From positions 14,138,501 through 14,202,500 of the forward strand of contig OY727094.1 of the NCBI GenBank assembly GCA_963402885.1: a stretch of 64,000 nt of DNA, read 5' to 3'. This DNA comes from Antedon bifida (lineage: Eukaryota > Echinodermata > Crinoidea > Comatulida > Antedonidae). The number at the start of each line of letters is the position of its first letter. Position 1 is the first letter of the stretch. Below are positions 20,501 through 49,800 of the stretch, in pieces. Under the pieces are notes generated by a model. It was given only the letters and a program-made list of their open reading frames with translations. It was not told the origin of the DNA and ran no database searches. The position numbers were made by a program, and so were the translations under genes.

Positions 20501-20946
20501 AGTAGTCTCAGTTTAAAATTAACTCAAAAGCTATTGCAAAATGATGCACGGGCCACCCAGAGGAAATATAAAAAATGTAGAAACATTGAAATAAAATCAT
20601 CATATTTATAATTATTCAATCATCATACCAGACCGTCGTAATGATCATCATTTCTAGCCGATAATGCACAGACTGAGGCGCGTACAGACCTCCTACAACT
20701 TTATGGCATACCTCATAAATGTGATACTTTAATTAATTTTTCACTCTTCTTCTTATCACTGATTATGTCTCTGTTGAAGAATTTAACAGCATAGAATATG
20801 CGTAGGTTTACGTACGTTTCAATTAGCAATGTTTCAATTGCTGGTGAACAAACATTCAACTTCATATAGGAACTAGCTGCTTTGGGTCTTCCAGTTTTCG
20901 ATTGGTTTCTCGCATCGCACTGTTTACAGATATCGCAATTGTGCAT
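14575..20946 (-). CDS. OGFOD2: 2-oxoglutarate and Fe(II)-dependent oxygenase domain protein 2 (complete model)
   Basis: Minus-strand exons in reading order: 20728-20946, 17868-17924, 16855-16965, 16483-16582, 15995-16119, 15314-15571 and 14575-14841. The junctions are GT-AG with consistent phases, giving 378 residues against about 350 in the human protein. Recognisable parts are the N-terminal region ending VKFFNRDI, TEVERRKSLGRDYLKRK, then ERIYSFPIFTEEF and the signature DLPKGRPNTMNNYG. The oxygenase core contains LYPDCGGDLLDSHKAFVVKY. Its iron ligands are HYD (His about 262, Asp about 264) and the His of HMHGA (about 318), and the Arg of GERYNLIIW (about 328) should bind 2-oxoglutarate. CPMCDNKPELIKTVGFGDGF and TVDVC at the C-terminus match the family closely. 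The substrate is unknown. The first exon (MHNCDICKQCDARN..) is the least certain; it was chosen because its phase and end fit the next exon. Confidence 0.9.
17205..17815. repeat. 21-bp minisatellite (ATTCTGCTACACAGGTACCGT), about 29 copies
   Basis: Units alternate between CAGGTACCGT, CATGTACCAT and CATGTACACT endings around the constant ATTCTGCTACACA. Because the unit is 7 codons long, frames stay open on both strands. This is an artefact of the period, not a gene. It lies in an intron of OGFOD2. Confidence 0.97.
18060..18089. repeat. Perfect hairpin, 13-bp arms
   Basis: GCATGGAGGTATA (18060-18072) and TATACCTCCATGC (18077-18089) are exact inverted copies around TTTT, inside OGFOD2 intron 1. 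A 42-bp direct duplication (GTGGAAGCTACTACCATCAT..) follows at about 18120-18200. Its function is not evident. Confidence 0.7.
18559..19636. mobile_element. Foldback element built from GGCCGAGTTGAC words
   Basis: Inverted arms of about 175 bp (18559-18733 and 19461-19636) consist of short tandem words, CAAGTCGGCCCC and CAACTCGGCCCC on the left and their complements on the right. The inner arm ends (CATTAAAGTATGGAACGCAA and its complement) are unique and match perfectly. The roughly 730-bp core is AT-rich with a short GC-rich patch (19105-19371) whose open frame shows no recognisable domain. It lies in intron 1 of OGFOD2. Confidence 0.8.
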
Positions 20947-22809
20947 TACACTTGCTTTCTTGACGACGTATAACCGGCTACATATACTAAAGTATTTAGC
21001 TGAGTCATCTCAAAGTCTTCTAAGCAGCAGTCGTCGTCAGAGCATCGTTGTCAACATGATGCGATGATGATGATGATGATGATTGGGCCATCATTATTGC
21101 ATCAATTCCATTTAGCTGTCGATCAGTGTCTTCTAGGCAATTCGAATTCCCTGACGGAATTAACATCCTGTTGCACATAACTTCCTTCAGGGAGGCTCTA
21201 AATTCATCTGCCATCGGGTAATAGCGATGACCCCCTCTCCCTCTGACAATAGAAAATAAGTTCTCAAGGCAATCTTGATTTAGTCTGCCTGTGAGTATAA
21301 ACTTAAAGGCGTGATTGTTGATTAATCAGTATTTGAGATTCTTCGAAATGAATATTGCACAAGAAGTGGCAATTACGTGTAAATAGGAACTTGGTTTCCT
21401 TCTCAAATCCGCGCGTCGTGTGTTCTGGGCCCATTTTGCGCACCTGTAAATTAATAATTGTCTAGTGAGTTTTTGCTTTATCATAATTAACGTTTACGTA
21501 ATTATAGGACGTCTACGTGCATGCTAATTGATTTTCAAATTGGTTAGGGCTTAAAATCAAATACTTAAGCCTAACCTAAAACCACTAACTAACTAACGGT
21601 TGAATTTCATAAATATTAAGTATAAGATTCAATTAAAAATTGTTTGTTAGGGCTACTCAACGGATAAGTAATATAACCAGGGAACAATAAAAATAGTGTA
21701 ATTTCACTGATATTATAACTAATCATAATGTCCTAGCCTAATAATGAATTATTTCATGCGTTAATATACTGTAATGTAAACGGCTAGTTAAATTAAACGA
21801 AATAAAATAACCATGAGACAGAAAGCAAATATTAACCATGAGACGGAAAGCATGAAATAATCAAGATCACAATTTGTTTATATTAAGTATTATTATTATT
21901 ATTTTTTGTATAATGTAAAAAGAGGGACTAGGCCTACAGCGACATGCCAATTGGGCTTCTTGTAGTCTTTCGACCAAATTTTTACTTATATGCCAACAAT
22001 TGTAATGATATATATTTGGTCAATAAATGTTTCTTGAATTGAAAGTTTTAAAAATTGTTTGTTAAGGGTACTAGGCCTAGCCTAAATGTTAGAGGATAAG
22101 TAATATAACCAGGGAACAGTGAAATTAGTGTAATTTCACTGTTATATAACTAATGTACTAGCCTAGTAGGCCTAGCCTAGGCCTAGGCTAGTAGCCTAAT
22201 AATGATAATAATAATCATTTCATACGTTTAATTATTAATAATAGGCCTAACTAGCCTAGTTTATTAATATAGCCTAGGCCTAGGCCTAGCCTATGTATAA
22301 ATTGAATAGTAAAAAAAAGTAAAGTAAGATTAGGCTAGTCCCTATGCCTACATAGTCATAGCATATGTTAAGATGTACTAGGCTACTTAGGCCTATTTAA
22401 TTACATAAATTTACCTGATCTTGTCTTTGGAAAAATTGTAAAACTTAAGTTCTGGGTTGGCCTTTCAATTGCTTTTACAATTAATTGCAGCACAGTACAT
22501 CCCTCCACTTTTTCTCTTTTCATTCAGTGTTTCTTAACCATACAAACTTTGGCGCGACTTCTCAATCCCATTTTATAAAGAATATTGCGATCGTCACGCA
22601 AAAGTTCGTTACTTGTTTAAGCGAGGGGGCGCACTATAATTTGACGCTTCTAAAGTGTTACGCGTAAACGCGGGTAGTGTCACATCTTTAGATTATAAGA
22701 TCTTTGATTAGGAGGCTACTTTATTATAGGTGGCGCGCGGCGGTGTTTTTGAAAAAAAAAGAAAGAAACTGTTGGTTTTGGGGAAGTGAGAGGAGGCGCG
22801 CCTATCAAA
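20947..22809. promoter_or_regulatory. Divergent upstream region shared by OGFOD2 (-) and MYO19 (+)
   Basis: The two genes are transcribed away from each other from start codons at 20946 and 22810. The 1.86 kb between them should contain both promoters and 5' UTRs. It holds a diverged direct duplication (about 21625-21775 and 22045-22215, both with GGATAAGTAATATAACCAGG and GTGTAATTTCACTG). There is also a short duplicated word, ACCATGAGACRGAAAGC, near 21811-21855. CCTAGG-rich low-complexity sequence covers about 22150-22300. GC-rich, CpG-containing stretches near 21405 and 22730-22805 are candidate core promoters by composition only. Confidence 0.45.
21020..21214 (-). CDS. Small open frame upstream of OGFOD2, uncertain
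   Basis: A 64-codon frame begins ATG GCA GAT GAA (MADEFRASLKEVMCNRML), continues through a six- to seven-serine run encoded by a TCA repeat, and ends at TAA/TAG near 21020. It lies on the same strand as OGFOD2, 75 bp upstream of that gene's first coding exon. It could be an upstream ORF, a first exon of another transcript, or chance. Nothing is recognised in it. Confidence 0.15.
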   Translation of the reverse strand: MADEFRASLKEVMCNRMLIPSGNSNCLEDTDRQLNGIDAIMMAQSSSSSSSHHVDNDALTTTAA

Positions 22810-25800: not shown

Positions 25801-28800
25801 AAAAAATATCAGAAATTTAATAATAGTTAAAATAGTTTATAATTAGTAATAGAGTATTTATTACCATAAAGACGTTCTTTCTATGCCTACAATACAAGTG
25901 AATATACTAGAGTACATGTTTTAGGGTAGGCCTATTATAAACTGATGTGTTGATTGAGGAATGAATCTACAGTACCATAGCGTATTGACAAGATATAATA
26001 TTAATATGGATAGAAGAATGAGTGTTATCCATTTAAGTGTAGCATGAAAGCAAACATTTTAAATTATTATAACATATTTAATTGTTATAATAATGTTAAT
26101 TAATACTTCAGGTTACTATAACTAACAGTGGGGGAAAAAATACCCGGAATGTCGAATAAGGAATAAGTAACCAACTTCACAACGCTTTAGGCCTAAGCTT
26201 TTTGGGCTATCCTGCAAAATCTTTTTTGTATTATTTGTAATGTCAGTAATTTATGTTATCACTTTCTTTTGTATGTATTTTTTATGATGATTTTCCTAAT
26301 AAATTGAAATCAAATCAGGCCGACTACACTTTTCTGCAAGCCTAGCCTGAGCCTAGTACTTAGTAGGCAGGCCTGTCAAGGCTATAATAGTAGTAGGGCC
26401 AAATAACCATTTAAATTCTCCGGGTCCTAGCTAGGCTAGGTCACAGGTGGTTATATGTTTATAAAAATTTGTTTGTACAAATTTACCATTTCGCTATTTT
26501 TTTTTCAGATTATTACTAAATCTAGGCCTAGATGCATTCCACCCCAAGTTAAAAAGAAACCAGCATGTCGTTTCAAAAAGGTAAAGGAAAATGCTATTGA
26601 TATTCTCTGTGTCATGCATAGTAGGCCTACTTTAGTAGACCTGAAGTGAACATTCTGACACTTGGCACAGTTATTCATTAGGGTATTAAAAACATGGAAT
26701 GAAATGGTTGCCCACACATTGGCTGGTTAATTTACTAATTCCATCTGTGTAAGCCGTTCTTTAAGTCAGTAGATTGTTTAAAAATAATACGTACATGTGC
26801 AACGTTTCAACTTGTTTTCAATAAGTCTTCATCTGGCAACTGACTAGATGTTAGTGGTTACTAGGAGTACTGTAGCTTTGCTAGTTGTAGATTAGTGCAC
26901 CCTAAAAAAGCAAAGAACTTCGGAAAATCACAGACTAAGGTTACAAATAGTCATTGCCAGACTTCTTAAAAACAAGTTGAAACGTCACACACGTATGTAT
27001 TCATGAATGATTTATACAGAATAATTACTATTAGATCCTTCAAAATGAAACACATCCTCTTTTCAATAAATATTAATTAGGCCTCAAAGCTCCAAATGAA
27101 TTCTTTAGAAAGACATGTACTGAGCGCTACAGAAAATAATTTATTCTGAAAGCTGTAAGATTTTACAACAATTACTCTTTAGCAATAATTTATATACATG
27201 TGTATTTTAAACATTTGTTTTAAATGTTTGTCTACATTTCTGTAACTGTAATTTCAGGGGTTAATGGTGTGGATACATGATGAAAAAGAGGTTTGGGTTC
27301 CAGCGTGTGTTAATTCATGTTTTAGTGATGGCAAGATTATAGTCACTAAATCTAATGGCCAGGTAAGAGGTTTGGGTTCCAGCGTGTGTTAATTCATGTT
27401 TTAGTGATGGCAAGATTATAGTCACTAAATCTAATGGCCAGGTAAGAGGTTTGGGTTCCAGCGTGTGTTAATTCATGTTTTAGTGATGACAAGATTATAC
27501 TCACTAAATCTAATGGCTAGGTAAGAGGTTTGGGTTCCAGCGTGTGTTAATTCATGTTTTAGTGATGGCAAGATTATAGACACAAAATATAATTGCTACT
27601 AAGTATTCTATATAATATATTTTAAATATTGCTTGTAACTTCATTGTCTAGGAGGTTGTGATACGTGGTCATGCTGGCTATCCAGTGCTGTGTACTCAAA
27701 CAGATTGGATCAATACAGATGATCTTGTTTTGCTTAATCCTCTCTCAGAACCTGCTGGTAAGTGAATTAATAGTAGACACATGTTTCAATGGTTGTTAAT
27801 AATATACAGGTCTTCCTCCAATTAAAGACCCCTTTAATTAAAAGCTCAATCTAATTTAAATCTTTTACCATTAGCTGCTGCCTCCCTCTAATTAGAGATC
27901 AGAGACCACAATTTGGATGAATCCAACTGAACAATTTCCTTCAAATTTCCCTGCAATTAAAGACCACTTTAAAATAAAATGTTATAATTACAGTATTAAT
28001 ACATTTTTAGAGTAGAACAGCGGACAATTTGAAGAAAATTAGACAAAATACTGGCAACACACGTTTGTTACTTAACCTAATGTTTTCTGTTCATAGTGCT
28101 GAACTGTATACGTGAGCGGTAGTTAGCTGGTAGATACCACACTCAGGCTGGTAAATACCACACTCAGACTGGCAACACACTTGTTACTTAACCTAATGTT
28201 TTCTGTTCATAGTGCTGAACTGTTTATGTGAGCGGTACTTAGCTGGTAGATACCACACTCTGACTGGCAACACACTTGTTACTTAACCTAATGTTTTCTG
28301 TTCATAGTGCTGAACTGTTTACGTGAGCGGTACTTAGCTGGTAGATACCACACTCAGACTGGCAACACACTTGTTACTTTGAATCCTTTCAAAGAAACTG
28401 GACATTTTGATGTTCATATGATTCATCGTTACCATAGTAATCAAAAGGTAAACAACGATTTGCTAGTATACTATTGATTTTCAGGAAAATTGATATGTTT
28501 GTGACATCACTATTAAAATCTTGACTTCACTTTAATCTTCAAATAATATTGGGCAAAAATATTAATATGTCCTCAGTTGCACTTAGAAGTGAGAACTTAG
28601 AGATATATGCTGAGCTTCCCTGAAAAGATAATTGTTTTGCTGAATATGCCATTTTATGTCACATAATACTGTAGTTATTCACTTTTTGACCAAAAATTGG
28701 GAAAAAAAACATTATTTACCTGAAAAACTGTACTTTTTTAACAGTCACATTTTCTGTCGGAAAATGGGCTTTTGGTTAAATTTAACCAATAATTTTGTCT

Positions 28801-31800
28801 TTTTTTAAAGTAAACCACTATATTTGTTTTTTATTTCTTTAAAATGAATAACTTTATTAAAAGAGCAAAATGGCTTGATTTTATTAATCCTCATTTTCAT
28901 GTTTTTTGGGGAATATACATCTTTATTTTATATATTTTGTCAGGCACACCCACCACATGTATTTAGAGTTGCAGAAATAGCATTGTGTAATCTTAATAGA
29001 AGACTAGACAAGATTAATCAGTCAATAATTGTCAGCGGTGAAAGTGGTTCTGGAAAGGTAATTCAACAATTTCAGTTTTACGTTTGTTTTCACCAATGTA
29101 ATCAGAGTCAATTTTCTACCTTTAAAACCATTTCTTGTTTATTTTGATAATACAAAGGCCCAAACTTGAATAAAAATAGAGAGGCTAAAGCATAGACAAG
29201 TAATAGAGAGTGCTATAATTTGTTTTTACTGTTTCAAAGGACACTGTTACAAAATCAGCATGTATTGAATGTCACTAAATGCTTGCCAGACGTGCAAAGA
29301 GGGAATGTTGGCAACCCATTTTCACAAAGGCAGTTTAGTCAATATTTTTTGTGAGCATACAAAAACGTTTGTTATTCTCTGTTATTTGCTGTAATTACAA
29401 ATTAATTATTGTTTTATTACAGACATGGAATGCAAGATGTTTACTAAAATATCTGACAACAGTAGCAGTATGTAACCCTGGGTATGAAAAATAAACACAT
29501 TTAATTTAATATCAATAGAAAACATTGACTCATGTGTGTAAAATTACAATTTTTATTTCTTTTTTGTTACTTATTTGTGATAACTTGTTGTCTTTTTTGT
29601 TCATAGTGGTTTTACACCATCACCAGCAGATTGCATTGAACGTAGAATATTAGACTCAAATCCTATTCTTGAAGCATTTGGTAATTATTATGTTTATCTT
29701 TAATCAAGTACAGTAAGGTACACATGTCATTCTCAAAGTGTAAAAACATCTATGTACTGTTATGGTCCTAAGATCGCTAGAAATTGGACCTTTATTTTTG
29801 TTAATATACAAAATCAGCATTTTTATATCATATCAATATATCAAATTTTCTTTAATCATCATCACCACCCAGTATCCTACAACTCTCTGTTAGACAACTA
29901 TTATTTCATTTTCTTAGGCAATGCTAGCACGTCCAGGAATCACAATAGTAGCCGCTTTGGAAAGTACATTCAGCTACAATTCAGTCGGTAAGTTTAAACT
30001 TTCCTTATTTTTATTTGTTAACGTTCAACCAACATACTGTATACAGGCCATGAATTTTGAGTTTCTACATATGCCATTTTGTGTGTCATAGCAGGGAAAA
30101 ATGAAATTACACACAATAGGAATTCTTATTTTAACTTTCCAATTTTGTTTTCAGTGGAAATCATGTTGTTGGTGCTTCTATTCAGACATATCTTCTTGAG
30201 AAAACTAGAGTTGTTTATCAATGTGATGGTGCCAGGAATTTTCACATCTTTTACCAAGTTAGTATTAGTTATGTTTCATTTTTGTGTACCTTTAAACCGG
30301 ATAACCAACTGTGTAACTTAACTGCTGGAAACTGTGATACATTTGCATATTTTCTGCAGGTTAGAGAAAACCCTTTGGTTGTAATCAGGTTGTCCAAATT
30401 CTACTGATATTCATAGGGGCCTGTTCTATTATACCCTTTGGTTGTAATCAGGTTGTTAACATTCTACTGATATTCACAGGGGCCTGTTCTATTATACCTT
30501 TTGGTTATAATCAGGTTGTTAACATTCTACTGATATTCACAGGGGCCTGTTCTATTATACCCTTTGGTTGTAATCAGGTTGTCCACATTCTACTGATAAT
30601 CACAGGGGCCTGTTCTATTATACCCTTTGGTTGTAATCAGGTTGTTAAAATTCTACTGATATTCACAGGGGCCTGTTCTATTATACCCTTTGGTTGTAAT
30701 CAGGTTGTTCAAATTCTACTGATATTCACAGGGGCCTGTTCTATTATACCCTTTGGTTGTAATCAGGTTGTTAAAATTCTACTGATATTCACAGGGGCCT
30801 GTTCTATTATACCCTTTGGTTGTAATCAGGTTGTCCAAATTCTACTGATATTCACAGGGGCCTGTTCTATTATACCCTTTGGTTGTAATCAGGTTGTCCA
30901 AATTCTACTGATATTCACAGGGGCCTGTTTTTTTGTTTGTTCTGTGCATGTGTGCTTTGTCCTGGTATTTAACTGACCGTACACCTGTTTGAAAGTATCG
31001 AAGCGTGACGTTTTTTTTCTCACAAACTTGAGGTTGCGCTAATGATAGCACCCACAACTGTACAATGACAATACTTCTCCCGTGATTTCACAAGGTTTGC
31101 GTGTGAATATGAAAACATGTAATAAGTCTGGAGATCAATAAAGGCAGATGTGAAAAGGATCTTTCTGGTACTGATATTAAACATCTTGGAACAAAATTGT
31201 CACTTTGTAATATTTTGTAGTATAGCGAAAGAAAGCACTCACTCTACTAATTTTATCAAAGCATGAAATATATTATTAGTTTATATTATTCTCATTACTG
31301 TATTAGTTTTTTTAATAATATCATTAACATTTCTTCTTTCAAATTATCATAGATGCTGTTTGGCGCAAATGAAAGGGAAATGAGGAACTGGTTACTAGGA
31401 AATGTATTGAGTTCAGACAACTTAAACTATGTGCCACTAAACCATTCAGAAGATGCATGTAATCAAAAAGATAAACAAGATTTTATAGTAACAAAGCAAG
31501 CAATGTCTAATGTTGGACTTAGCAGGTCACAGCAACAAGAATTATTTAAAGTAAGAAACTTTTACTTAATTAGAACTGGTTACTTAATAAACATTGTTTT
31601 ACCAGGGAAGAGTGAAATTCTCTGGTAAAACATGGTTAAACTTAGTGGTGATATTATTAGTAGAACCTGAACCAAAGCAATGTGTTTAGATGCCTTGGTT
31701 GAACTAATCCAGCACATGTGGACAGTAAACATCAGTGAACTTTTACCTAGTTTTTACAATCATGATAGTATATTGATTCAAAACAACTTTTACAAATTTA

Positions 31801-34800
31801 TGGTTTGCCTTTAATGAAAAAATAACTGGTAGGATATAAATAAGTGTTTTAATAGACTTTGATGTTTTTTATACATAAATCTAATAGTAATGTTATAATT
31901 CTATTTTTTGAATTATTGAATTGAATTTGAAATGTGTTTATTTGTAGGTTCTAAGTGGTATACTTCATCTTCGAAATGTAGAGTTTATTAGTGATGATGA
32001 TGTTACTGGACCATGTGAAATTGATTCTGAAAAACAAGGTAAATGATATAAAGGTTATGCTGTTTAATTATTTTCTGTATTATACCAATAAAAAGATTGC
32101 ATACAGTATTTATAGTTTAGCTTAAAGTAGTTGCGACCTTTAAGATTGCATACAGTATTTATAGTTTAGCTTAAAGTAGTTGCGACCTTTAAGATTGCAT
32201 ACAGTATTTATAGTTTAGCTTAAAGTAGTTGCAACCTTTAAGATTGCATACAGTATTTATAGTTTAGCTTAAAGTAGTTGCAACCTTTAAGATTGCATAC
32301 AGTATTTATAGTTTAGCTTAAAGTAGTTGCGACCTTTAAGATTGCATACAGTATTTATAGTTTAGCTTAAAGTAGTTGCAACCTTTAAGATTGCATACAG
32401 TATTTATAGTTTAGCTTAAAGTAGTTGCAACCTTTAAGATTGCATACAGTATTTATAGTTTAGCTTAAAGTAGTTGCGACCTTTAAGATTGCATACAGTA
32501 TTTATAGTTTAGCTTAAAGTAGTTGCGACCTTTAAGATTGCATACAGTATTTATAAATAAATAATTTTGTTTGACAAATCCAAAAGAAATTACTCACATT
32601 CTTTAGCTTTCGCCATCTTGTCTGATGGCTTGATCACAAGTGATCCGGTCGACTGCTACTTCCTGGAAATCTGTTGTTATTGTTTCTAGGTGACGTCATA
32701 CTTTTTCGTAGCAATGATGTGTATACGTGATCGAGATATACAGCCCCTTCGTCGCGGTTGATTGCGTTAGCCCCCCTTCTTCTGATTTGGATTGCCTCTC
32801 TGATTCTACGCTTGAATGGGTTAGAGTCTCTGTCAAGAATTTTGGCCCCCTCCCAATCGATGATGTGGTTTTCTTGCGCTGCATGGTCTGTGATGGCGGA
32901 TTTGTGGATTTCGGATGTTGATTCCTTTTTAGTTGCCCGGGTGTATTTACGATCGGTGACCGTTTCAGTGTCTTTTTGGTGTTCTTTCCGGAATCACTTG
33001 TGATCAAGCCATCAGACAAGATGGCGAAAGCTAAAGAATGTGAGTAATTTCTTTTGGATTTGTCAAACAAAATTATTTATTTATTACCTACAACAGTCCT
33101 ACAAAATGCGCTTATTCACGGATACAGTATTTATAGTTTAGCTTAAAGTAGTTGTGACCTTTAAGATTGCATACAGTATTTATAGTTTAGCTTAAAGTAG
33201 TTGTGACCTTTAAGATTGCATACAGTATTTATAGTTTAGCTTAAAGTAGTTGTGACCTTTAAGATAGCATACAGTATTTATAGTTTAGCTTAAAGTAGTT
33301 GTGACCTTTAAGATTGCATACAGTATTTATAGTTTAGCTTAAAGTAGTTGTGACCTTTAAGATTGCATACAGTATTTATAGTTTATCTTAAAGTAGTTGC
33401 GACCTTTAAGTTTGCATACAGTATTTATAGTTTAGCTTAAAGTAGTTGCGACCTTTAAGATTGCATACAGTATTTATAGTTTAGCTTAAAGTAGTTGTGA
33501 CCTTTAAGATTTCATACAGTATTTATAGTTTAGCTTAAAGTAGTTGCGACCTTTAAGTTTGCATACAGTATTTATAGTTTAGCTTAAAGTAGTTGCGACC
33601 TTTAAGATTGCATACAGTATTTATAGTTTAGCTTAAAGTAGTTGCGACCTTTAAGTTTGCATACAGTATTTATAGTTTAGCTTAAAGTAGTTGCGACCTT
33701 TAAGATTGCATACAGTATTTATAGTTTAGCTTAAAGTAGTTGCGACCTTTAAGATTGCATACAGTATTTATAGTTTAGCTTAAAAGTAGTTGCGACCTTT
33801 GATTGCATACAGTATTTATAGTTTGCTTAAAGTTTGATTAAGTTTTAATAGATTATATTTATAATAAATTGGCGTTTATTTATGATTCAAAATATTCTAT
33901 CAACAGTTTATATATCTTTTTAGTATTTTTTAAATTGTTTTTATTTCTACCATAATATAATATATGAGAAATAACTAAAAACAGACATAAGGAATAGCTT
34001 AATATTCTGATAGGTTGGCCAAAAAATATATTAAAAAATATCATTAATAATTATGTCATTTTAAAATCTTAAATAATCTTATTAATATTCTTCTCCATCT
34101 TCAAAAAATGTTGATAAAATATTTCAACCAAAGAAAGATTTTATAATTTACTAATTATTCAATATATCATATTGTTGTACTATTGATGTTGCTTCATCAG
34201 GAGTTGACACCTCTGTTAATGCTGCTGCACAGTTACTTGGTCTTGATGTTGATGCCTTAACTAGATGTCTAGCATTCCGACAAATCACTGCATCTCACAA
34301 GCGTAGAAAGAGTGTCTTTATGAAACCTTGCTTAAAAGATGAATGTCACACAAGGAGAGATTGCCTTGCAAAGTTACTCTATGCCAGGTATTTTACAAAC
34401 ATTATAAGTATAATATTTGTTTTTTGTAGTGAAAGGAACCTACTTACTCTTTTTAAAATGATCTTGTTGTACAGTATTTGCCTTTTTACTGACATGTTAT
34501 ACATTCAAAACAAACCAACAGAAGATGTTGTACATATCCAATAACTTTTATTTGCTTCCCCATATGCATGCTGGGCTGCACCAAGGTGAATTGCCCACAG
34601 CAAATCATACATACACCTTTAAACATTCACAAAAATAAAATGAACATACATACATTACATGCAAACTCTAATACATAGTCAATTTAATTTCATTTATTTT
34701 CTGCCTAATCTCTCTTTCTGTCATGGCCTGACTTCTTTCTGCCTAATTTCTTTCTTTGTCATGTAGTTAGTATGTAACAGGAGAAAATGTTTACATGCAA

Positions 34801-37800
34801 ACGTTTTCAACCCTGCTTTGGTTTTACAAAAAAAACTAGCTTTGAAGACTGTGACTAAATTTATGTTTTAATGTTTCAGAGTTTTTGATTGGCTTGTTGG
34901 ATTCATCAATGACAGTACCATGGCCAGGAGTTGGCAGTCTTACATTGGTCTACTGGATGTCTACGGATTTGAAAGTTTTTCATTTAACAGTTTGGAGCAA
35001 TTATGCATAAATTATGCAAATGAGAAGCTTCAGCAACATTTTGTGCACAACTTCCTCAAAGCAGAACAGGTATTCCAACAAACTTATTTCTATATATAGA
35101 GTATGCTAATATACAGTTGGTGCAACAGTGTTTTATTTTCACCATATAAGAGTGGTAATAACAACAGTTCTTTTATTCATTAAAAAAAGTGAAGAAAAAT
35201 AATATGGCACTTCTTTTAGTTTATATCAAACGAATCTTGTAAAAACTTAATAATATCAAAATACTAGTATAATTATAATACAATATAAAATAATTAAGAT
35301 AACAATAATAATTAAAGTTTATGAGAATTATCGTTCACTTTTGTTATCTAACAGTGATAATTTATAAACATAATTATACTGCTGATTAAACAGCTATGTT
35401 TATATTATTCTAGAATGACTGTCAATCTGAGGGAATTCCATGGAAATTTGAAGACTTTACTGACAATAAAAGATGTCTTGATATTATTGAAGGCAACATC
35501 AGTATATTTGCACTTATGAATCAAGTAAGTGTTGCTATTCCACAGCAAAATACAAAAAATAATTTGTCATAGTTTTTTGCCAATTATGGTTGGAAAAGAC
35601 CTGTATTCTGTAGTCTTTTTATTGAAAGATAAACTTCTGTAAAAAAAGATGTATTAAGAATTCGCCTTTCTCAATCGTAGTACAGTACGTCGTAAAATAA
35701 TAACTCCTTCCTATTTTGAATTTGACATTTTGAGAAACAGTGATTTTTACCAGACAGGCATAGTTTGTCTTACAAACCATAGTTTGTCTTTCAATAAAAA
35801 TAAACTGTAGTTTGTAAGAAGATAAACAATGGACTTTTGAGCCTAGTTTACACTAGAAAACCTGGTGCTGATGTACTTTTGCACCTCAAGCTTAACCCCA
35901 ATTTAAAAATATTCACCTGCTGCACATCAGTGATGGTGAGTGACCTTATGCCCAGTGATTTCAAGTTAGGTGTAAAAGTACAGTAGCACCACAACCAGTT
36001 GCAAACTACAAGTTGTTGTGCTTAGTGGAGACTGTCCATCTAAGATCACAATCATGTTATTATGTCATTTACTTTCTATGAACTAATTGCAAGTTTATCT
36101 TGTTTATAGCAATGCAAGTTAAACAGACATTCAGATCCAAGTTCATTTTGTGAGTTTCTTCATGACACCATCAGCAGTGCAAACTTATCTCGTGCACGCA
36201 TGTCAGTGACATCACCAGCTTTTGTTGTGCATCACTATGCAGAGAAAGTTACGTACCAAGTGGATGGTCTAATTGAAAAGAATAAGGTAATATTTTTAAA
36301 ACTGAAAGCCAGTTTTACAGTACATTCACAAAAATGGGGGATAGAAATAGTCATTAAATCATAAATAGTTTCTCAAAGCATTACAATTATTGGATACTGC
36401 ATCTGCTTCGTTTAAACTCATTTCTCATAATCTTATAACTGAAAATAAAAGCCACAGGAAAATGTATCAATGGCTGTTTGTAGCTATAGGGAATGCTCTA
36501 TCACCTGTGTAAGAAGAGAAGACTTAAGTGGGAAAAGCTTTTGCTAAACTATTTTAGCTCATTTGTTAAAAACTTGTTGTGAGATCAAGGAGGAAGGACC
36601 AGACAATTTAACTATCAACTTTAGAATACAACATAGTGTATAGAAACAAATTAAAGGTTAGCCTGTCATTAATAAAAACAATGGTCAGCAGTCAAATTGT
36701 TTATATTTGTTTTATACAAATATTATATTATATAGCCGAAGGCTAGATGTCAAACTACAATGTTATCGCAGTTCAAAAGGTGATTCTCCATGGAGAGGGA
36801 ACCAACAAGATGGCGGCTGCAATCGACCAATCAGATATGCCCTACGCAGTACGCAGTGCTATATGCCTGTGTTGAGCCTATCTGCGTGAGAACAATACGC
36901 AACGCAGCGTGTTAAGCGTATAAACGCGAACGCATTCTATATGATCCTCGTATACAAAAAATGCTAGATTACCAAGAAATTATTCATTCCATTGCGATTA
37001 ACAATAATTTTATAAATCTTTACTGTGACAAGAATATGTGTTGTAATTTATGTTGTCTTAATGTATTATATTAGATTATTATTTTTTATATTAAATAATG
37101 TTTTTGAACACATTTACGGCCGCCATCTTGTTGGTTCAAACTCCTGTTTGAATCACTTTTCAGTCTGGAGTACGTGCTCTAGCCTTCGGCTTATTACATC
37201 TCTCTGGTTTTATATCAAAATAAGAATTGGTTCACTAACACAATTCTATTTAGAAAACGACTAGAGTGTTTCAACCTATTTAACCACACATCCTCTGCAT
37301 TATTACAATTGCATCAAGTTAAGAACAATCAATTTACCATCTTGCCCTCCTGCCCTGTTGGGGCTTTTTTTTTCTGAGCATCCCTATACTTCAAATGGAA
37401 ACCTTATATTGCTATTACATTATATTTGCTCATTAGATTTAATGTGCAGTGTACACAGGTGAATGTTCATTTACTAATTAATCTATTGTGTATCATTTGT
37501 TGTTTTTAGGATGGTATTCCAGCAGAACTTGTAGATTTGCTTAGAATGAGCAGCAAGAAGTTTGTGCAACAACTAGTTGATGCTAATGTTACCAGTTTAC
37601 AGGTGATTGATCTTGTCATTTGTTTTTAAACACCATAGTACTATACTAACACCATACTAACATCAAACTAACAATGTAGTGACTAACACTATACCATTGC
37701 TTTTTAAGTTCTGTCTTCATCAATGTTACATCATGAAACTTTTAAACAAAGAATAATGCCGAATAAATGTGTGATATTTATAATGCCATCTTGTCAGTTA

Positions 37801-40800
37801 TGTCAATAGTTCTGTTTAACCTAAAATAGGTTAATTTTATGATTTTTTTTTCAGAGTCCAAGTAAAACAAAAGGCAAAAAGACTACTTTTACAGTGGTAT
37901 CAAAATTTAAGGTACAGAATCCTGAAAATTGAAACTCATACAAACTTAATTTAGAATCTTGATGAATTTTAGTATGGAACATCAATTAAAAAAATACCTT
38001 CAAGACCGAGCTCTTGCTTTAGGAGTAAGATAGGTTTTTTGCTTTGTTGTTGTTTTTGCTTTCTTGACCATTTTTTTTCTTGAAAGAGGAGAAACAGGGA
38101 AACAAGGACTTTTATGGGTTTTCCTCAGCATCCCTGTTTTTGTATATTGTTGATGTTTCGATATTTTGTTTCCTGTATATTATATTAATTATAATTTATC
38201 TGTAAATTGTTTTTATGATGCTGAAATAAATCAAATAAACATCTGCAAGATCACTCAAATTATTGCTTCCCAATTTTTTTTTTACTTCTGTTGAAAATGT
38301 AACTTATAATATATGCAAGATATTTTATTTTTTGATTATCAGACATATTTCCTCAATCCATTTTGTATTTACTATACTTATTTTGGTTGATACCATTTAG
38401 TTTTTACATGTAATCTTCGGGGTAACAATCTAACAATTGTATCTTATATCTTAGAATTCATTGGACAGTCTTATGGCTACTTTACATGAAACAACACCTC
38501 ACTACATCCGCTGTATCAAACCAAGTCTTGAGTGTCAACCAGACAGCTTTGATAACGTTCATGTTATAAATCAACTACGTGCTTGCGGTGTTCTTGAAAC
38601 AATTCAGATTAGTGCAACAGGCTTCCCTACCAGGTCAGACAGCTATTGTTGTGTGTTCTTTTTATACTAACAATGCACCCATCTATGACTGGTTGATACC
38701 CTTGTTAGTTAAGTTCACTTGAAACAATTCAGATCAGTGCAACAGGCTTCTTCCCTACCAGGTCAGCTTACAGGGATTGTTTTGTGTTCTTTTTATACTA
38801 ACAATGTACCCATCTATGACTGGTTTATACCCTTGTTAGTTAAGTTCACTTGAAACAATTCAGATTAGTGCAACAGGCTTCCCTACCAGGTCAGCTTACA
38901 GCTATTTGTTTTCGTTTGATACCTTGGCTAAACATTTTCGATATTGAATAATTAAGCAAAAACTAAAATCGTTGTGTTGTATTGTTTTATAGGTTGCACT
39001 AAACATGTTACAACCTTCTTATTTGTTGTAATTTGTATTTTCCTGTATTTTTTACTATTACAATCCCAATTAAACAGCTTGCTCTAGGACTTACAATACA
39101 TATACTGAAAGATGAGGGCGTATCAATTTGATCTCTGATGAGTGTGCCTACAACTGAGGGACTAGTGCTGTACCGCCGTACCACGACGATCCAATCGAGT
39201 TTGAACAATACCATGAAAGCCCCAGTGGTCTAATGGTTAGGACATCTGCATATCAAGCAGAAGGTTCCGGGTTTGAATCTTGGTGGGGAAGACTTTTTCT
39301 CATTCTCACAGATTTCCTCATCTTCATCGTTTCAAATAAATTAATTAAATTTCAGTATATCACCAGGTGGTTTAGAATTTATTCTGTGCCTGTGATGTTT
39401 ATAATATGTACTATATATATCCCTGTGCATACTGTACATGTTGAACACCTACACTTGCCAGTGTGTTGTTTGTTATACTTGATTCTCAACGATAACTACA
39501 ATTTTCTTATAGAATGTTGTACAGTGATTTTCTTAAGAGGTATGAATTATTAATAAGGTCAAACTCAGAAGATGTAAAAGATTTGGATACAAAAAGTAAA
39601 TGTGCTGTTATTACGAATCTGGTTTTAGCTGAAGCAGACAAAGAAAATAAAATGAAAAGCTTTTTGTTTGGAAAAACAAAGATATTCCTAAGAGAGGGAC
39701 AGGTACTTAAAAGTAGTTTAATAATAATTTAATTATTTTATATTTGCAGTAGAATAAATTAAATTTTAATTAGTTTAAGTGAATATTTTATGGCAAAGGA
39801 ATCATTAGCAATTATTTGACTTTATACGGTCATTTTTCGCCAAGGTAAGGTGAACTAGGCAGTCTTATTACTTAGGATAGCCGACCCAGCCAAGTTTACT
39901 TACACTTTGCTACATATTTTAATATAACAGATGTAATATAGTTCCTCGAGAAAAATATCATTCCCTCGGGGATGTCAATTTTTATATTTCACCTCTAAGC
40001 CGGCAATATCTGTATAATATAAACCTTTGCAGTAGAGCTGAATGAGTGTCGTAAAATAAACCTTTATTTTTAAAAGTAGTGCTACAGAATTATTTTTGTA
40101 GTATAAGATAGGAAATTCACCAAAATTGACTAAATAATTATGTAAAATTGAGGCATTTTTCTTTTAAAAAAAAGTATATAAATATAAAAAAGAAAAGAAC
40201 AATCAATTTGACACAATTTAATAAATACCATTTTATTAAAAAATTGTTACCCAGTTAAATGTGTGTAAGTCATTGAAAATCAGTAAAATTCCTATCTTAT
40301 AACATTATGAAAAAGTTGTAGCACCAAATTATAATACTTTTAGCTTTTAGTTTTTAGCTTGTCAGTGTAAAAAAGTAAGTAAGAATCTGCATCATTGTAT
40401 ATTTATTATATTCCGTTATTTTTCATTTAGTTGGATAAACTTGAAGTTGCAAGATTGAAGGAATTCAATTTAAGTGCTGGTGTAATACAGATATGGTGGA
40501 GGAAGATCCTGGCAACCAAAAGTAAACAAGAGGCAGCTGTGGTCATCATTCAAGCAGGTATTGATTGTAATAGTGTTTTGACAAATATCTTGCAGGCATC
40601 ATGCTGTTACCAAACCAAGCCACTAATTGTCACTAATTAGAATTGATATGTTGTAGGTTTTAGAGGCTGGAAGGTGAGAGAAGATGTAAAGAGACGACAT
40701 GAGGCAGCACGTGTCATATAGTATGCTATGATGCTGAGTCACTAATTAGAATTGATATGTTGTAGGTTTTAGAGGCTGGAAGGTGAGAGAAGATGTAAAG

Positions 40801-42073
40801 AGACGACATGAGGCAGCACATGTCATACAGTATGCTATGATGCTGAGTCACTAATTAGTAATTGATATGTTGTAGGTTTTAGAGGCTGGAAGGTGAGAGA
40901 AGATGTAAAGAGACGACATGAGGCAGCACGTGTCATACAGTATGCTATGATGCCAAGTCACTAATTAGTAATTGATATGTTGTAGGTTTTAGAGGCTGGA
41001 AGGTGAGAGAAGATGTAAAGAGACGACATGAGGCAGCACGTGTCATACAGTATGCTATGATTGGATATTCAATTCGTTTACACCAACGCAAGTTAGATGA
41101 ACAATTAAATGAATTGAATTCAGACGAGGTAGGCCTTTACTTAAAACTCGCAATTTACAATCTTCGCTGCACCAACAAACTTTACAATGTGAAGTATGTT
41201 CCTTCATCACTAACACATCCTCATTTACATGTACTTACTTTAATGATGTTAAATTAACACATCATCATATGTACTGTGCTATAAAACTAATAATGTTGAA
41301 TAGAGTATATTTCATTTACTGAGAGATTGCTTGTGCTTGGTTCCGCCTCATTAAATGGTCAATCAGTTAATTTTCATGAAATATTCTCCGTATTCAAATC
41401 ATAAACATTCAGTTTATGATTTTTAATCTAATAATTTTTTTCTTGATACAATTTAATACAATTTAACATTTATTTTTACCAGTTTGCTGATTCTGATGTG
41501 CAAGAATGCAATGATGAACAATCACAACAAAACAATAGCATATTAACAGAAGGTATACTGTCAGCAGTATCACTGGATAATGAACCTCATGACAGTAACC
41601 TGTCAGTGATTAGTTCAAGCAATGGCACCAAAGAAGTTGAAGATCAAGACAAAAGCGATAAGTTTACCAGTAAAGGAATTGAAGATCAAGACAAGAGAGA
41701 TAAGTTTACCGATAAAAGCATCAATGAAATTGAAGAACCAGAAAATGTAAATAACAATTATAGAATACAATTTCATGAAAATGGTAACCTGAAATGTAAT
41801 AGTGGTAGAAGTGAGGGAAATACAATAGTAAACATTGAACAAAAAGATGGGGATGAAATATCTCAAAAGAAGAGCTCAAATGAACAATGTGGTACACATA
41901 AACCAATAGCTAGTGAGCAACAGAATGGTAGACGTGTTGAAGAGGAGCCTGTAAATCAAGGAACTACTACCATCATTAACAAGTTTGTGCAAGTTGCAAC
42001 AACTCCTGCAGTTGATATAGCTTTTGGTATTGTGTTACTTGGTTTGCTGTATCATGGTCCAGTTAGGCTATAA
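22810..42073 (+). CDS. MYO19: Class XIX-like unconventional myosin, 23 exons, hydrophobic C-terminal tail
   Basis: Exons: 22810-22863, 26509-26580, 27258-27362, 27652-27757, 28308-28447, 28944-29057, 29423-29481, 29607-29680, 29918-29987, 30155-30257, 31353-31550, 31948-32038, 34201-34387, 34880-35069, 35414-35524, 36110-36286, 37510-37602, 37855-37911, 38455-38633, 39513-39702, 40431-40557, 40986-41128 and 41483-42073. Phases agree throughout; about 1076 residues (human MYO19 has 970). Residues about 48-105 ([13 protein letters not shown]..) look like a myosin N-terminal SH3-like fold. The P-loop is GESGSGKTW (about 190-199). Switch I lies within [14 protein letters not shown] and switch II is [10 protein letters not shown] (about 485). 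[14 protein letters not shown] is the actin-binding region. TWNARC after the P-loop and [18 protein letters not shown] match MYO19 best. Three IQ motifs lie at about 800-865. The known family role is an actin motor on the mitochondrial outer membrane. Exon 1 and exon 2 are assigned from splice signals and phase only. Confidence 0.9.
22905..23010. repeat. CCTAGG/GGCCTA low-complexity stretch
   Basis: Overlapping CTAGGC and GGCCTA words (for example GGCCTAGGCCTAGCC) form a self-complementary low-complexity tract. Similar tracts occur at 22150-22300 and 25245-25320. The tract directly abuts the left end of the outer foldback element. Confidence 0.6.
23013..25240. mobile_element. Outer foldback element of GGGACGATTCGGCCC words
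   Basis: The left arm (about 23013-23080) and right arm (about 25127-25240) are inverted and built of tandem words (CTGA)GACGATTCGGCCC and GGGACGATTCGGCCC. The outermost parts match, with CCGG followed by GGGACGATTCGGCCC on both sides. The right arm has more word copies than the left. The core (24700-25127) is AT-rich and non-coding. The element is split near its left end by the inner foldback at 23087-24694. It lies in intron 1 of the myosin gene. Confidence 0.75.
23087..24694. mobile_element. Inner foldback element, 1608 bp, with 6-bp target duplication GATTCG
   Basis: The element starts TATGGGCGGCCATTAGGGCC and ends with the exact reverse complement. GATTCG is present on both sides (23081-23086 and 24695-24700), and that word belongs to the host foldback. 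The two arms mirror each other for roughly 600 bp, through repeated GGCGTAAGGACAAAAATT and GCCGAAAGGACAAA words and then long unique sequence. The centre holds a module (GAGAAAACGGCGG.. to GGGTACC) twice in direct orientation and once inverted. No transposase is visible. Confidence 0.85.
25355..25530. repeat. Decayed array of GGCCCGATCGTCTCA-like words
   Basis: About eight loose copies of words such as GGTCCCGATCGTCTT, GGCCCGATCGTCTCATG and GGGCCTGATCGTATTAG occur in a row. They resemble the foldback words (GGGCCGAATCGTCTCA) but are not identical. No inverted partner was found, so it may be one arm of a decayed related element. Confidence 0.55.
26783..27000. mobile_element. Short element with inverted ends containing GTTGAAACGT
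   Basis: TACGTACATG..CAACGTTTCAACTTGTTTTC (26790-26822) is mirrored by AAAACAAGTTGAAACGTCAC..CGTATGTA (about 26965-27000). The left arm continues with AAGTCTTCATCTGGC and its mirror GCCAGACTTCTT. The reverse complement of the left arm reads GATGAAGAC..AAGTTGAAACGT, a pattern seen in terminal regions of Penelope-like and other hammerhead-bearing elements. The core has no coding signal. Confidence 0.45.
27288..27603. repeat. 79-bp tandem duplication of the 3' part of myosin exon 3 plus its donor
   Basis: The unit starts inside exon 27258-27362 at GAGGTTTGGGTTCC and runs through the donor AGGTAAGAG. It recurs at 27367, 27446 and 27525 with few changes. The copies carry the donor but not the natural acceptor, so only the first copy can be a normal exon. 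The last copy has lost its donor. Confidence 0.9.
28052..28378. repeat. Tandem copies of a myosin exon's acceptor and 5' half
   Basis: The real exon starts at 28308 after TTCTGTTCATAG. Copies of the same acceptor and following exon sequence (TGCTGAACTG..GGCAACACA) occur at 28097 and 28213, spaced 116 and 95 bp. The 28097 copy has an in-frame stop and the 28213 copy runs into TAA, so neither can replace the real exon. They remain as decoy acceptors. Confidence 0.88.
28618..28927. mobile_element. MITE copy 3 (same family as 223-550)
   Basis: ATGCCATTTTATGTCACATAAT, TTTTTGACCAAAAATTGG, TTACCTGAAAAA and TTTTTGGGGAATATACATCT follow the order of the element at 223-550. The ends are diverged. The right end lies about 18 bp upstream of the acceptor of the myosin P-loop exon (28944). 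Confidence 0.75.
30367..30925. repeat. 62-bp tandem array, about 9 copies, myosin intron
   Basis: The unit contains CCCTTTGGTTGTAATCAGG, ATTCTACTGATATTCACAGG and GGCCTGTTCTATTATA. The copies are very similar. It lies in the intron between exons 30155-30257 and 31353-31550. Confidence 0.95.
32095..33835. repeat. 49-bp tandem array, about 24 copies in two blocks
   Basis: The unit reads TTTAAGATTGCATACAGTAT and then TTATAGTTTAGCTTAAAGTA. It repeats from about 32095 to 32555 and from 33122 to 33835. The blocks are interrupted by a Penelope-like fragment. The left block favours GTTGCGACC and GTTGCAACC, while the start of the right block favours GTTGTGACC. It lies in the myosin intron before exon 34201. 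Confidence 0.95.
32555..33085 (-). mobile_element. Penelope-like element fragment with GIY-YIG C-terminus
   Basis: Inverted arms of about 88 bp (32555-32644 and about 32992-33083) match essentially perfectly, including CATTCTTTAGCTTTCGCCAT and CAAGCCATCAGACAAGATGG-type segments. Between them the minus strand (about 32960-32700) reads [20 protein letters not shown], followed by [12 protein letters not shown] and NAINRDEG. This is the typical C-terminal part of the GIY-YIG endonuclease of Penelope-like elements. No reverse transcriptase remains, so the copy is heavily truncated. It sits within the 49-bp array. Confidence 0.75.
36734..37191. mobile_element. 458-bp MITE with AGCCGAAGGCTAGA ends
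   Basis: The left arm (36734-36823) and right arm (about 37108-37191) are imperfect inverted repeats. Shared landmarks are AGCCGAAGGCTAGA, AAGTGATTC-like and AACCAACAAGATGGCGGC. The core is richer in CG (AACGCAGCGTG..AACGCGAACGC) than the surrounding intron. No open frame of note. It lies in the myosin intron before exon 37510. Confidence 0.75.
38596..38905. repeat. Tandem copies of the 3' end and donor of myosin exon 38455-38633
   Basis: GAAACAATTCAGAT and then GTGCAACAGGCTTCC..ACCAGGTCAG, the end of the exon and its donor, recur at 38721 and 38852 with about 90 bp of intron in between (period about 125-131 bp). The copies lack the upstream exon part. Confidence 0.88.
39218..39298 (+). tRNA. 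tRNA-like sequence, Asp(AUC)-like; pseudogene or SINE head
   Basis: The cloverleaf arms can be drawn. The D arm is GTC..GAC around TAATGGTTAG. The anticodon arm is TCTGC-ATATCAA-GCAGA with anticodon AUC. The T arm is CCGGG-TTTGAAT-CTTGG. Only five acceptor pairs form (CCCCA with TGGGG). A T-run (CTTTTT) follows at about 39293. The A and B box positions fit Pol III promoters. An AUC anticodon is unusual for Asp and the acceptor is imperfect, so a functional tRNA is doubtful. The preceding 39060-39214 may hold a minus-strand tRNA-related repeat (TGGTACGGCGGTACAGC), but this is weak. Confidence 0.5.
40645..41065. repeat. 110-bp tandem copies of an IQ-exon acceptor and 5' half
   Basis: TATGTTGTAG acceptors followed by GTTTTAGAGGCTGGAAGG.. 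occur at 40657, 40766, 40876 and the real exon 40986. The first three copies run into stop codons soon after GTCATA or ATGATG and have no donor. Only the fourth continues into the complete exon. All four are very similar, so the event is recent or homogenised. Confidence 0.9.
41483..42073 (+). other. Myosin tail exon with C-terminal hydrophobic segment
   Basis: This final exon encodes 196 residues of mostly acidic and polar tail (two near-copies of EDQDKxDKFT at about 41640-41715). It ends in [18 protein letters not shown], then LYHGPVRL and a stop. The hydrophobic stretch of about 15-18 residues next to the C-terminus, with one Arg after it, resembles a tail anchor. I did not recognise the MyMOMA region of vertebrate MYO19. 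AATAAA at 42406-42411 may be the poly(A) signal. Confidence 0.7.
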
Positions 42074-46819: not shown

Positions 46820-49800
46820 CTGTATCAAAAAGCAAAATTATGAATCAATTGTGTTTTTAATCCTATTAAAAAAGTAGGTTAAACATAATCATTATTTTAT
46901 CCTAATTGATACCTTTGTTATCCTTGACATCTGACATCTTCCTTAGTTTACTAGATCCTTTAACTTTTAATTTTAAAGATGTTTTATGAGCCTTAGCAAC
47001 GGTATCGGTATCGTCAGTATCAGATTCTGGATCTATGTTGTTCTGTCTACCAGCTTCTTTTGAGGTAGAAGCTACAATGACAATATAAAAACAAAATAGT
47101 GATAAAGTTAAACCAAGATGTACAATTGCTTGTTTTGTATTGTTATTTTATGTATTGTTACTCTTTTAGATCTAATAATCATACACTTAATTTAGCAAAG
47201 TAAATTATGAATGCATTAGTTCGGCAATTCAGGAATTTGATTTAAAAATGATGACCTTCAAAAATATACACTAATGATAATTTCTGTATCAGCTGAACAG
47301 TTTTTCATTTATAATAAATCCTTTACCATCAACTGTAGACTTGTTGGCATATATTGTGCTGTATAGTGTATAGTGAATTCAATTCAATTGCATTCAATCT
47401 ATCGCATGGTTTGAACCTAGCATTGTGTATGATAATGACAAATATTCATAATAAATCTTTTACCATCAACTGCACCTTTGTTATCCTTCTTGTACTTGGA
47501 GGAAAATAATCTCTTCACTTTATGAGTGAATCTTTGAAGTCTTGAAGTGGAAGCTTGTGCACTGCTATGACCATCACTGTCAGAATCTAGAGCTATGCTT
47601 TGTTTTGTACTATCTCTCGATTCAGATGCTAAATAAAAATAAATTGAAAAGCAACATTTTAAAAACTGTATAAAACTAGATGTACATTTACAATAACATT
47701 TTTTTTAAATCTGTGGATTATCACAAATGATGATGGCACAGACTTATTATATAAATCTAAAAAAGGTTTGGTTTTTTTTACTTCAATCATTTTATGGCAT
47801 TTATATAATAGAACAAATAATATTCATTTTTACATGAATGATGCAAATAAAATGTCTTATTATAATATCCATTAAGTATACTTAATTAAATAAAGAATAT
47901 ATATATTCTTTATTTTCAAAATTGTTAACTTGAATCCTCATACATTTTGTTTGGGTTGAGAAAAAAGTTTTTTTTTTATTTTACATCATCCTAAAATTTT
48001 AACCTATATCAGTGAAACTGATGGATAATACAAACACAAATTCTCTACCTTTTAGTACATTGTCTCCAAACAGATTACGGTAACGTTTCACTTCCATTCC
48101 TCTGCTTCCACATGGCAACACATCTTGATCAAATTTGCGTACAACATGCATATGAGTAGGTTCACCTTTTGAAGCACACACACAAGGGATGTACATCTTT
48201 ACTTTAACACCATGTGCATTCTTCTCACTCAAAAAGTGTAATTCTTTTTCAAGAAAAGTTAGTACCTAGAAAATAAAATAATTTGATTTGGTTGATTATA
48301 TTGCTACCCACAAAAAAAGTAGTATTTATTATTTAAAATAATTATACAAACTAAAAATTACTAAATGGAGCAGAATGACAACATGTAAGCATGCTTCAGA
48401 ATGGGATCACCAAAACATATTCAAATACAACATACATTTATTAAGTGTACATTACAGTACAACAAAAAGTGTACTCTAATATTCAAAATTTGCTTTTCCA
48501 TTATGTATAAGTTTTATAAATGATCAAAACAATTTTTAATTATTAATTATTATATATTGTTTAATTATCTTTAATAATAAAAAATGTTAATACTCTACAT
48601 ATCCAACTCATTAATATTATTTTTACATTAACTTACCTTCTTACATATGCTAGGTTTTGGATCATCATCTTCAGGAAGGCCAGCAGCATTCATGATGTCT
48701 GTTCTAACTATTGTTGTCTGCAATATCAAAATTAATGTAGTAGTTGTTTTATAATTGTTTCTCTTTAATTTTCATGAAATAAATTGCCACTAATTCTATA
48801 ATCTCTATAGATAAGTGCTATATTTTTCACCGATATTCTGCCCTATGTTTTTGTCTGCCCTATGTAATGCTTAGTGTTTTCTATTTATATTTATAATAAT
48901 TTTTACGAATTAATAGACGCTTACTATATAACTTTACAATAAAATTTAATGTTTTTTGTTATTAAATTTTATTGTAAAGATATTAATTTTTGTTCAGGTA
49001 AAGGTTGTACAAGCGTTTGTTCTTTATTTTAGTCTCTTTCCATTTTACTGTTAATTTGATATGTTATATCTAAAATGGAGAATTTAACTGAAAATGATAA
49101 TGTTTCTATTATAATTTTATCTGAGACTGATATTTTCTGAGAGGTAATTAAACTTTTAGATTTATGTTTTGTTTTAGCAACAGTATTATAGCATCAATTT
49201 TATAATAGAAAACGAAAAAACGCAATCATTTTATTTGTCATTGACTTCTGCTATCAACACATTCTTCCCGGTTAAATCCATTAAGATACATCCAACTGAT
49301 AAGCCATGGATTTCGCAACAAGCAAAGGATCTTATAATGAAACGTCAACACGCTTTTACTAATCATGGTAAATCGCTGCAATGGAAATTCTATAGGAATA
49401 TGGTACAAAAAGTGATCAAGAAAGACAAAATGAACTTTTACAATGAACGCTTATTAAACTTAAAAGCCACTAATCCCCATAAATGGCACCAAGGCGTGCA
49501 GATGTTAGCTAATAAAACTAAACCCCAACCACTTATTAGTGTAGAGGATATTCCGCAGGATGACTATCATGGTATAAGTAATTTTGTAAACAACCATTTT
49601 GCTATAACTTCCCAAAGCAGACCTAGTATTGATTTATGTAAGCTTCCTACGTATTTACCTGCCAATAAACCCCCTAATGTAAAAGAATGGGAAATGTACA
49701 ATCAATTAAGAAAAGTTAAAGTAAATAAGTCCCCGGGCCCTGATAATGTGCCTAACAGATTAATAAGAGATTTTGCATGCGAACTAAGCATCCCTATGAC

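Follow-up and report, generated by a model that had tools for sequence, protein, structure and literature searches.

Why does a single myosin gene carry four tandem arrays that each repeat one of its splice sites, and how does its reading frame survive them? The gene lies in a stretch of 64,000 nucleotides, here called the window (C7:14138501-14202500, within an assembly of 315.6 Mb in 27 contigs), and was modelled by hand; its first Met may fall within exon 1. The second part of the modelled protein matches Pfam Myosin_head (8.7e-106), an IQ motif falls slightly below the Pfam cut-off, and myosin Va gives the top matches among solved structures. The gene may be myosin XIX-like. The reading frame of the model stays open across all four border arrays. 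The gene and the four exons concerned, placed by sequence and model, are as follows.

27258..42073, forward strand: myosin gene, 21 exons modelled, frame open over 1068 residues, 5' end provisional
27258..27362, forward strand: exon 1, donor GGCCAG/GTAAGA
28308..28447, forward strand: exon 3, acceptor TTCATAG/TGCTG
38455..38633, forward strand: exon 17, donor CTACCAG/GTCAGA
40986..41128, forward strand: exon 20, acceptor TTGTAG/GTTTT

The arrays were located with Tandem Repeats Finder (TRF) and then by reading of the sequence together with the hand-built gene model.

27286..27593, forward strand: exon 1 donor border array, TRF 79 bp x 3.9, coding copy first
28050..28379, forward strand: exon 3 acceptor border array, TRF 116 bp x 1.9 overlapped by a second row of 95 bp x 2.5, coding copy last
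38593..38906, forward strand: exon 17 donor border array, TRF 131 bp x 2.5, coding copy first
40629..41061, forward strand: exon 20 acceptor border array, TRF 110 bp x 4.0, coding copy last of four

A preliminary description of this DNA had reported four such arrays, two carrying donors and two carrying acceptors. TRF finds all four within 1-16 bases of where they had been placed, and both sequence and gene model bear out the two donor and two acceptor arrays, which follow one another along the gene in the order donor, acceptor, donor, acceptor. Each unit includes a splice site and the adjoining piece of exon; in the exon 17 array the unit length is about 128-131 bp. The copy that is joined to the remaining exon is the first in the donor arrays and the last in the acceptor arrays.

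The window gene is one of many. When the exon-20 array was used as a query, at least 46 matches were found in the assembly, all on the forward strand, and these group into at least 10 loci on C7 (11.6-17.8 Mb) and at least 18 loci on C10 (11.2-16.1 Mb). The C7 loci, the window among them, hold the myosin gene and the C10 loci hold parts of it. Exon 17 (at least 195 bases of a 201-base query) is found at at least nine C7 loci and at no C10 locus among the matches listed, and the last exon is stop-free at at least 10 C7 loci and present as short pieces at at least 11 C10 loci. We examined nine other C7 copies (A-I) in part and one C10 copy. Among the nine, exon 1 was mapped solely in C and H and exon 3 solely in A, C, D, H and I, so arrays at these two exons may have been missed in the remaining copies.

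Units per array, counted with blastn, differ widely between these copies. At exon 17, nine C7 copies including the window have 2, 3, 3, 5, 6, 7, 18, 19 and 25 units, and the tenth (D) is without the exon. At exon 20, the ten C7 copies have 1, 1, 1, 1, 2, 2, 4, 5, 5 and 7 units and the single C10 copy read has 10; in copy H the final exon-20 unit is separated from the others by about 1.5 kb. Across the ten C7 copies there are border arrays at seven exons (1, 3, 5, 9, 15, 17 and 20). Three of these positions were found in copies other than the window: a donor array at exon 5 in copy F only (81 bp x 2.0), a donor array at exon 9 in copies B, D and F (81 bp x 2.3, 1.9 and 8.9) and an acceptor array at exon 15 in copies A and I (98 bp x 3.1 and 2.1). 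Both sides of exons are affected, with donor arrays at exons 1, 5, 9 and 17 and acceptor arrays at exons 3, 15 and 20.

When we compared the nine C7 copies with the window gene, using 11 to 19 exons per copy and leaving out the last exon, exons not aligned over 90% and exons of changed length (8 and 18 in A, 18 in C), we found a pooled pN/pS of 0.60. Eight of the nine copies are stop-free in the compared exons; copy D has two stops and is without exons 14-19. From these values we read the C7 copies as young and weakly constrained. At exon 10 (window 31948-32038), the window copy reads LHLRN and seven other readable copies (A, B, C, D, G, H and I) read LHLGN.

Could the assembler have created or inflated these repeats, as the preliminary description had suggested? 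Near-identical loci assemble poorly, so that the copy numbers given here may be off, and one amphioxus array of this general kind seems to be misassembled in a draft genome, according to the portion of that report available (PMC3087553). Against this, the identical exon-20 unit junction is found in C7 loci separated by megabases as well as in the single C10 copy read, the outer flanks are common to single-copy and multi-copy states, the units differ by substitutions, and a myosin-I-like gene on C15, which belongs to a different myosin class, has the same structure. The suggestion was not borne out, and we give an artefact almost no probability: the arrays are real.

Are exon borders special sites for such arrays? 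The window gene holds three larger arrays wholly within introns, so the border arrays are not the sole kind there, and its last exon holds an in-frame coding repeat.

30370..30929, forward strand: intronic array, 63 bp x 8.9, beginning 11 bp beyond exon 8, not a border array
32093..32555, forward strand: intronic array, 49 bp x 9.4, beginning 55 bp beyond exon 10, not a border array
33122..33833, forward strand: the 49 bp unit again, in a second block, x 14.6 (TRF), intronic
41630..41710, forward strand: in-frame coding repeat in the last exon, 42 bp x 1.9 (TRF)

In the other nine C7 copies the last-exon repeat has units of 45 bp (x 2.9-11.3, eight copies) or 42 bp (x 3.9, one copy); with 1.9 to 11.3 units over the ten copies, the length of the protein tail probably differs between them. 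Elsewhere within an intron (window 39218-39291) there is a tRNA-Asp-like sequence with anticodon ATC, which may be a piece of a tRNA-derived repeat.

We compared the observed arrays with a random model in which units of these lengths were placed anywhere in the gene with its arrays collapsed (12,239 bases, 3,207 of them exonic). The array lists were hand-picked and omit the last-exon coding repeat, arrays beyond the last exon, a 66-bp row beside the 63-bp array in copy G and rows with 30-33-bp units in copies E and G; the 30/148-bp array of copy E was entered as 148. In the window, four of seven arrays span a border as compared to 1.7-2.0 expected (P 0.06-0.10), or four of six as compared to 1.5-1.8 when the two 49-bp blocks are counted once (P 0.04-0.07). 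For the family, in sequence judged alignable to the window copy, the count is 7 of 11 with 2.7-3.1 expected (P 0.006-0.014), and when arrays in copy-specific insertions are added it is 7 of 17 with 4.9-5.8 expected (P 0.19-0.35). The comparison of border with non-border arrays that the preliminary description had proposed thus gives an excess near chance in the window, and in the family an excess that depends on which arrays are counted. The excess of arrays at borders is weakly above chance, modest at best. Chance alone is hardly rejected for the window (P 0.04-0.10) and is a borderline case for the family.

These values bear on an explanation in which transcription, R-loops or the splice consensus would make exon edges hot spots of breakage and duplication. 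The 7 of 11 alignable arrays speak for it, the intron arrays begin near donors too (11 and 55 bp), and the exon-1 unit has its boundary only a few bases from the donor. Pure chance does not fully explain the 7 of 11 placement. The founding junctions point the other way, as do the window counts and the 7 of 17. Four junctions can be read against single-copy loci (exons 5, 9, 15 and 20); they are of mixed type, each at a distance of about 24-80 bases from its splice site. We consider splice-junction-linked breakage unlikely. The preliminary description, which had raised it, finds weak support at best: the alignable family arrays favour it and both the window and the wider family count do not.

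The junctions themselves can be read because single-copy and duplicated states of exons 5, 9 and 15 are both found among the loci and four of the ten C7 copies (A, E, F and I) keep exon 20 as a single unit whose outer flanks match those of the arrays save for single-base differences. In the exon-20 arrays a filler, about five bases long and slightly variable, lies at the unit junction and is common to the C7 loci and the C10 copy. The exon-15 unit has TAGATTT or TAGATTTG at both ends in undivided copies, which amounts to 7-8 bases of homology. At exon 9 there are about five to six inserted bases at the junction, and at exon 5 about two. For exon 1, no single-copy state was found against which its junction could be read. 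No common motif was seen at the founding breakpoints in the four junctions read, and this mixture of types would fit ordinary break repair or slippage better than one special site. The paired states give readable birth junctions of young minisatellites.

What became of the extra copies? We measured the diversity of the exon-derived piece in coding and extra units, with units covered to less than 85% and the C10 copy excluded. At exon 20, diversity is 0.0026 in coding units (10 units) as compared to 0.0348 in extra units (17 units). At exon 17 the values are 0.0167 (9 units) and 0.0475 (70 units), and at exon 3 they are 0.0204 (6 units) and 0.045 (17 units). At exon 1, where there are only 3 coding units and the first units of two cut stretches were counted as extra, they are 0.0173 and 0.0576 (24 extra units). 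Coding copies are therefore 2 to 13 times less diverse than extra copies, and the surplus behaves like intron sequence. Units of one locus diverge from each other about as much as units of different loci do, which indicates no strong homogenisation of the arrays within single loci.

Use of a surplus site would lead to a stop before the next site in all cases checked, which are a subset of all extra units: donors in 12 of 12 cases and extra acceptors in 16 of 16. In the window, a stop is met on reading past the exon 1 or the exon 17 donor, and on reading in from two extra exon 3 acceptors and three extra exon 20 acceptors. The earlier claim that the extra copies are unusable as full exons is thus upheld by stops in all 28 cases. 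Constraint and stops together suggest that splicing uses the outermost, coding site.

The splice signals of the surplus units are largely intact, which raises the possibility that they are kept as decoys or as stepwise splice points that tune splicing. Among extra C7 units covered to 85% or more, the splice dinucleotide is altered in 1 of 70 at exon 17, 0 of 24 at exon 1, 0 of 17 at exon 20 and 0 of 17 at exon 3. Such retention is ordinary within these units: 64 of 124, 41 of 84, 82 of 103 and 67 of 92 dinucleotide positions, respectively, are conserved equally or more. With half or more of the unit positions conserved to at least the same degree, the dinucleotides bear no sign of selection, and we rejected selection preserving the extra splice sites. 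Copy numbers also vary widely, and in the C10 copy two of nine extra acceptors are altered. A function for the arrays is, in our estimate, very unlikely.

The AG or GT signals in the units also recall intron gain by tandem duplication (the Rogers model) or duplication of an exon, in which case the arrays would be nascent introns; the lancelet authors saw comparable arrays as raw material for new introns, in the portion of their report available (PMC3087553). In the window gene no new intron lies within a formerly continuous exon, as the 21-exon frame is open without an extra one, and the surplus copies that were checked run into stops. This makes intron gain or exon duplication extremely unlikely here.

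Taken together, these data make it very probable that the arrays are exon-border minisatellites of the type called mirages, tolerated because splicing would keep to the outermost site and passed on to the recent duplicates of the gene. Some segment of about 80-130 bp, lying across an exon edge by chance, would have been duplicated in tandem, probably by ordinary break repair or template slippage. The duplication would have been tolerated because the spliceosome would go on using the outermost site, the one joined to the remaining exon: the first donor in donor arrays and the last acceptor in acceptor arrays, as exon definition would choose on both sides. Surplus copies would then have become neutral intron, lost coding constraint and expanded or contracted as minisatellites do; over the same period the whole gene was duplicated again and again on one chromosome. 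The preliminary description had counted four independent cases with a shared mechanism; the arrays are indeed of one kind, but the count of independent cases has to be amended: recent whole-gene duplicates have the arrays in common, and another gene is affected too.

That other gene came from a control in which six further myosin genes were read over part of their length, 67 kb in seven stretches. The stretches contain three arrays with units of at least 40 bp, and one of the three is a border array.

455-1061 of stretch L032 (reverse complement): acceptor border array in the myosin-I-like gene on C15, 98 bp x 6.2, coding copy last

Border arrays are therefore not confined to the window gene. 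Their generality across this genome is uncertain, with one of the six other myosin genes sampled carrying one; the C15 array was found by reading the sequence and lay beyond the reach of the exon search, so that others may have been missed.

How do these arrays compare with known ones? The nearest known structures are the mirages of amphioxus. In amphioxus globin genes, mirages occur on acceptor and donor sides, with haplotypes of 6 and 3 units, RT-PCR results suggest regular splicing despite them, and earlier cases in Adh3 are mentioned in the available part of that report (PMC3087553); a second report, likewise available in part, adds PGBD5 and cites troponin C (PMC3902484). In both sources, as far as they were available, the unit lies over an exon border on the donor or acceptor side, splice signals stand in many units and the number of units varies (PMC3087553, PMC3902484). 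The present arrays agree: their tandem unit spans the exon-intron boundary, many units retain AG or GT signals, and array length is unstable, here between duplicated genes. They differ in that there are seven border positions in one gene family, with up to 25 units, spread by gene duplication. Also, the lancelet cases include RNA and haplotype data in the parts of those reports available, whereas the present ones are known from genome sequence alone.

The hosts differ as well. On the mitochondrial contig C27, AAA reads as Asn, AGA as Ser and ATA as Ile at ND1 sites that we take to be conserved, which is the echinoderm/flatworm code, and the COX1 frame (Pfam) and a frame that is presumably COX2 are open under table 9. 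The character of the COX1 sequence makes an echinoderm the likelier host. The lancelet mitochondrial code differs from this type. By its mitochondrial code the present host is not a cephalochordate, as the hosts are in all mirage cases described in the available portions of the literature. In our view the taxon describes the cases known so far and does not define the structure; should the name be reserved for lancelets, the arrays described here would be mirage-like and not mirages.

Other systems share single features with these arrays. In human segmental-duplication genes, minisatellites vary in number between near-identical duplicates and some are in-frame coding; the units there average 30 bp, and the part of the report available makes no mention of units that span splice borders (PMC2812944). 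In a potato RdRp gene, according to the available part of the source, a tandem duplication includes splice signals, as here, but a new intron arises, whereas here existing introns lengthen (PMC4974935). A sea urchin immune gene family combines tandem repeats with segmental duplications, in the excerpt available (PMC5103432). Border arrays outside lancelets were not found among the literature matches listed, of which parts were available, and this is weak evidence of absence.

The kind of structure is thus already known from lancelets, and it is the setting, the number and the natural dose series that seem to be new; a structure known from lancelets seems to extend to another deuterostome phylum. 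In the donor arrays the first, coding site is followed by near-identical copies closer to the acceptor, and in the acceptor arrays near-identical copies precede the coding one. A rule of taking the shortest intron would go wrong at donors and acceptors alike, and a rule of keeping the exon intact would work at both. With 2 to 25 donors at exon 17, or 1 to 7 acceptors at exon 20, these near-identical genes form a natural dose series for splice-site choice. More tentatively, and with somewhat less confidence than doubt, we propose that in this probable echinoderm, outside lancelets, border minisatellites keep arising across the genome, that they may be tolerated on both sides only through exon definition, and that arrays of 2-25 sites with single-site sister loci could serve as a ready-made test of splice choice.

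The surroundings of the gene gave further observations. An open frame of 639 residues (window 49178-51094) resembles the reverse transcriptase of a LINE-type element. The upstream flank (window 20300-21500) belongs to a dispersed repeat, of which several chromosomes carry near-identical copies. The downstream flank (window 57000-58200) is unlike it: among the matches listed, it is repeated many times in the same regions of C7 and C10 as the myosin loci, on the forward strand. The regions C7 11.6-17.8 Mb and C10 11.2-16.1 Mb hold a large family of duplicated segments in the same orientation, an amplification on the megabase scale.
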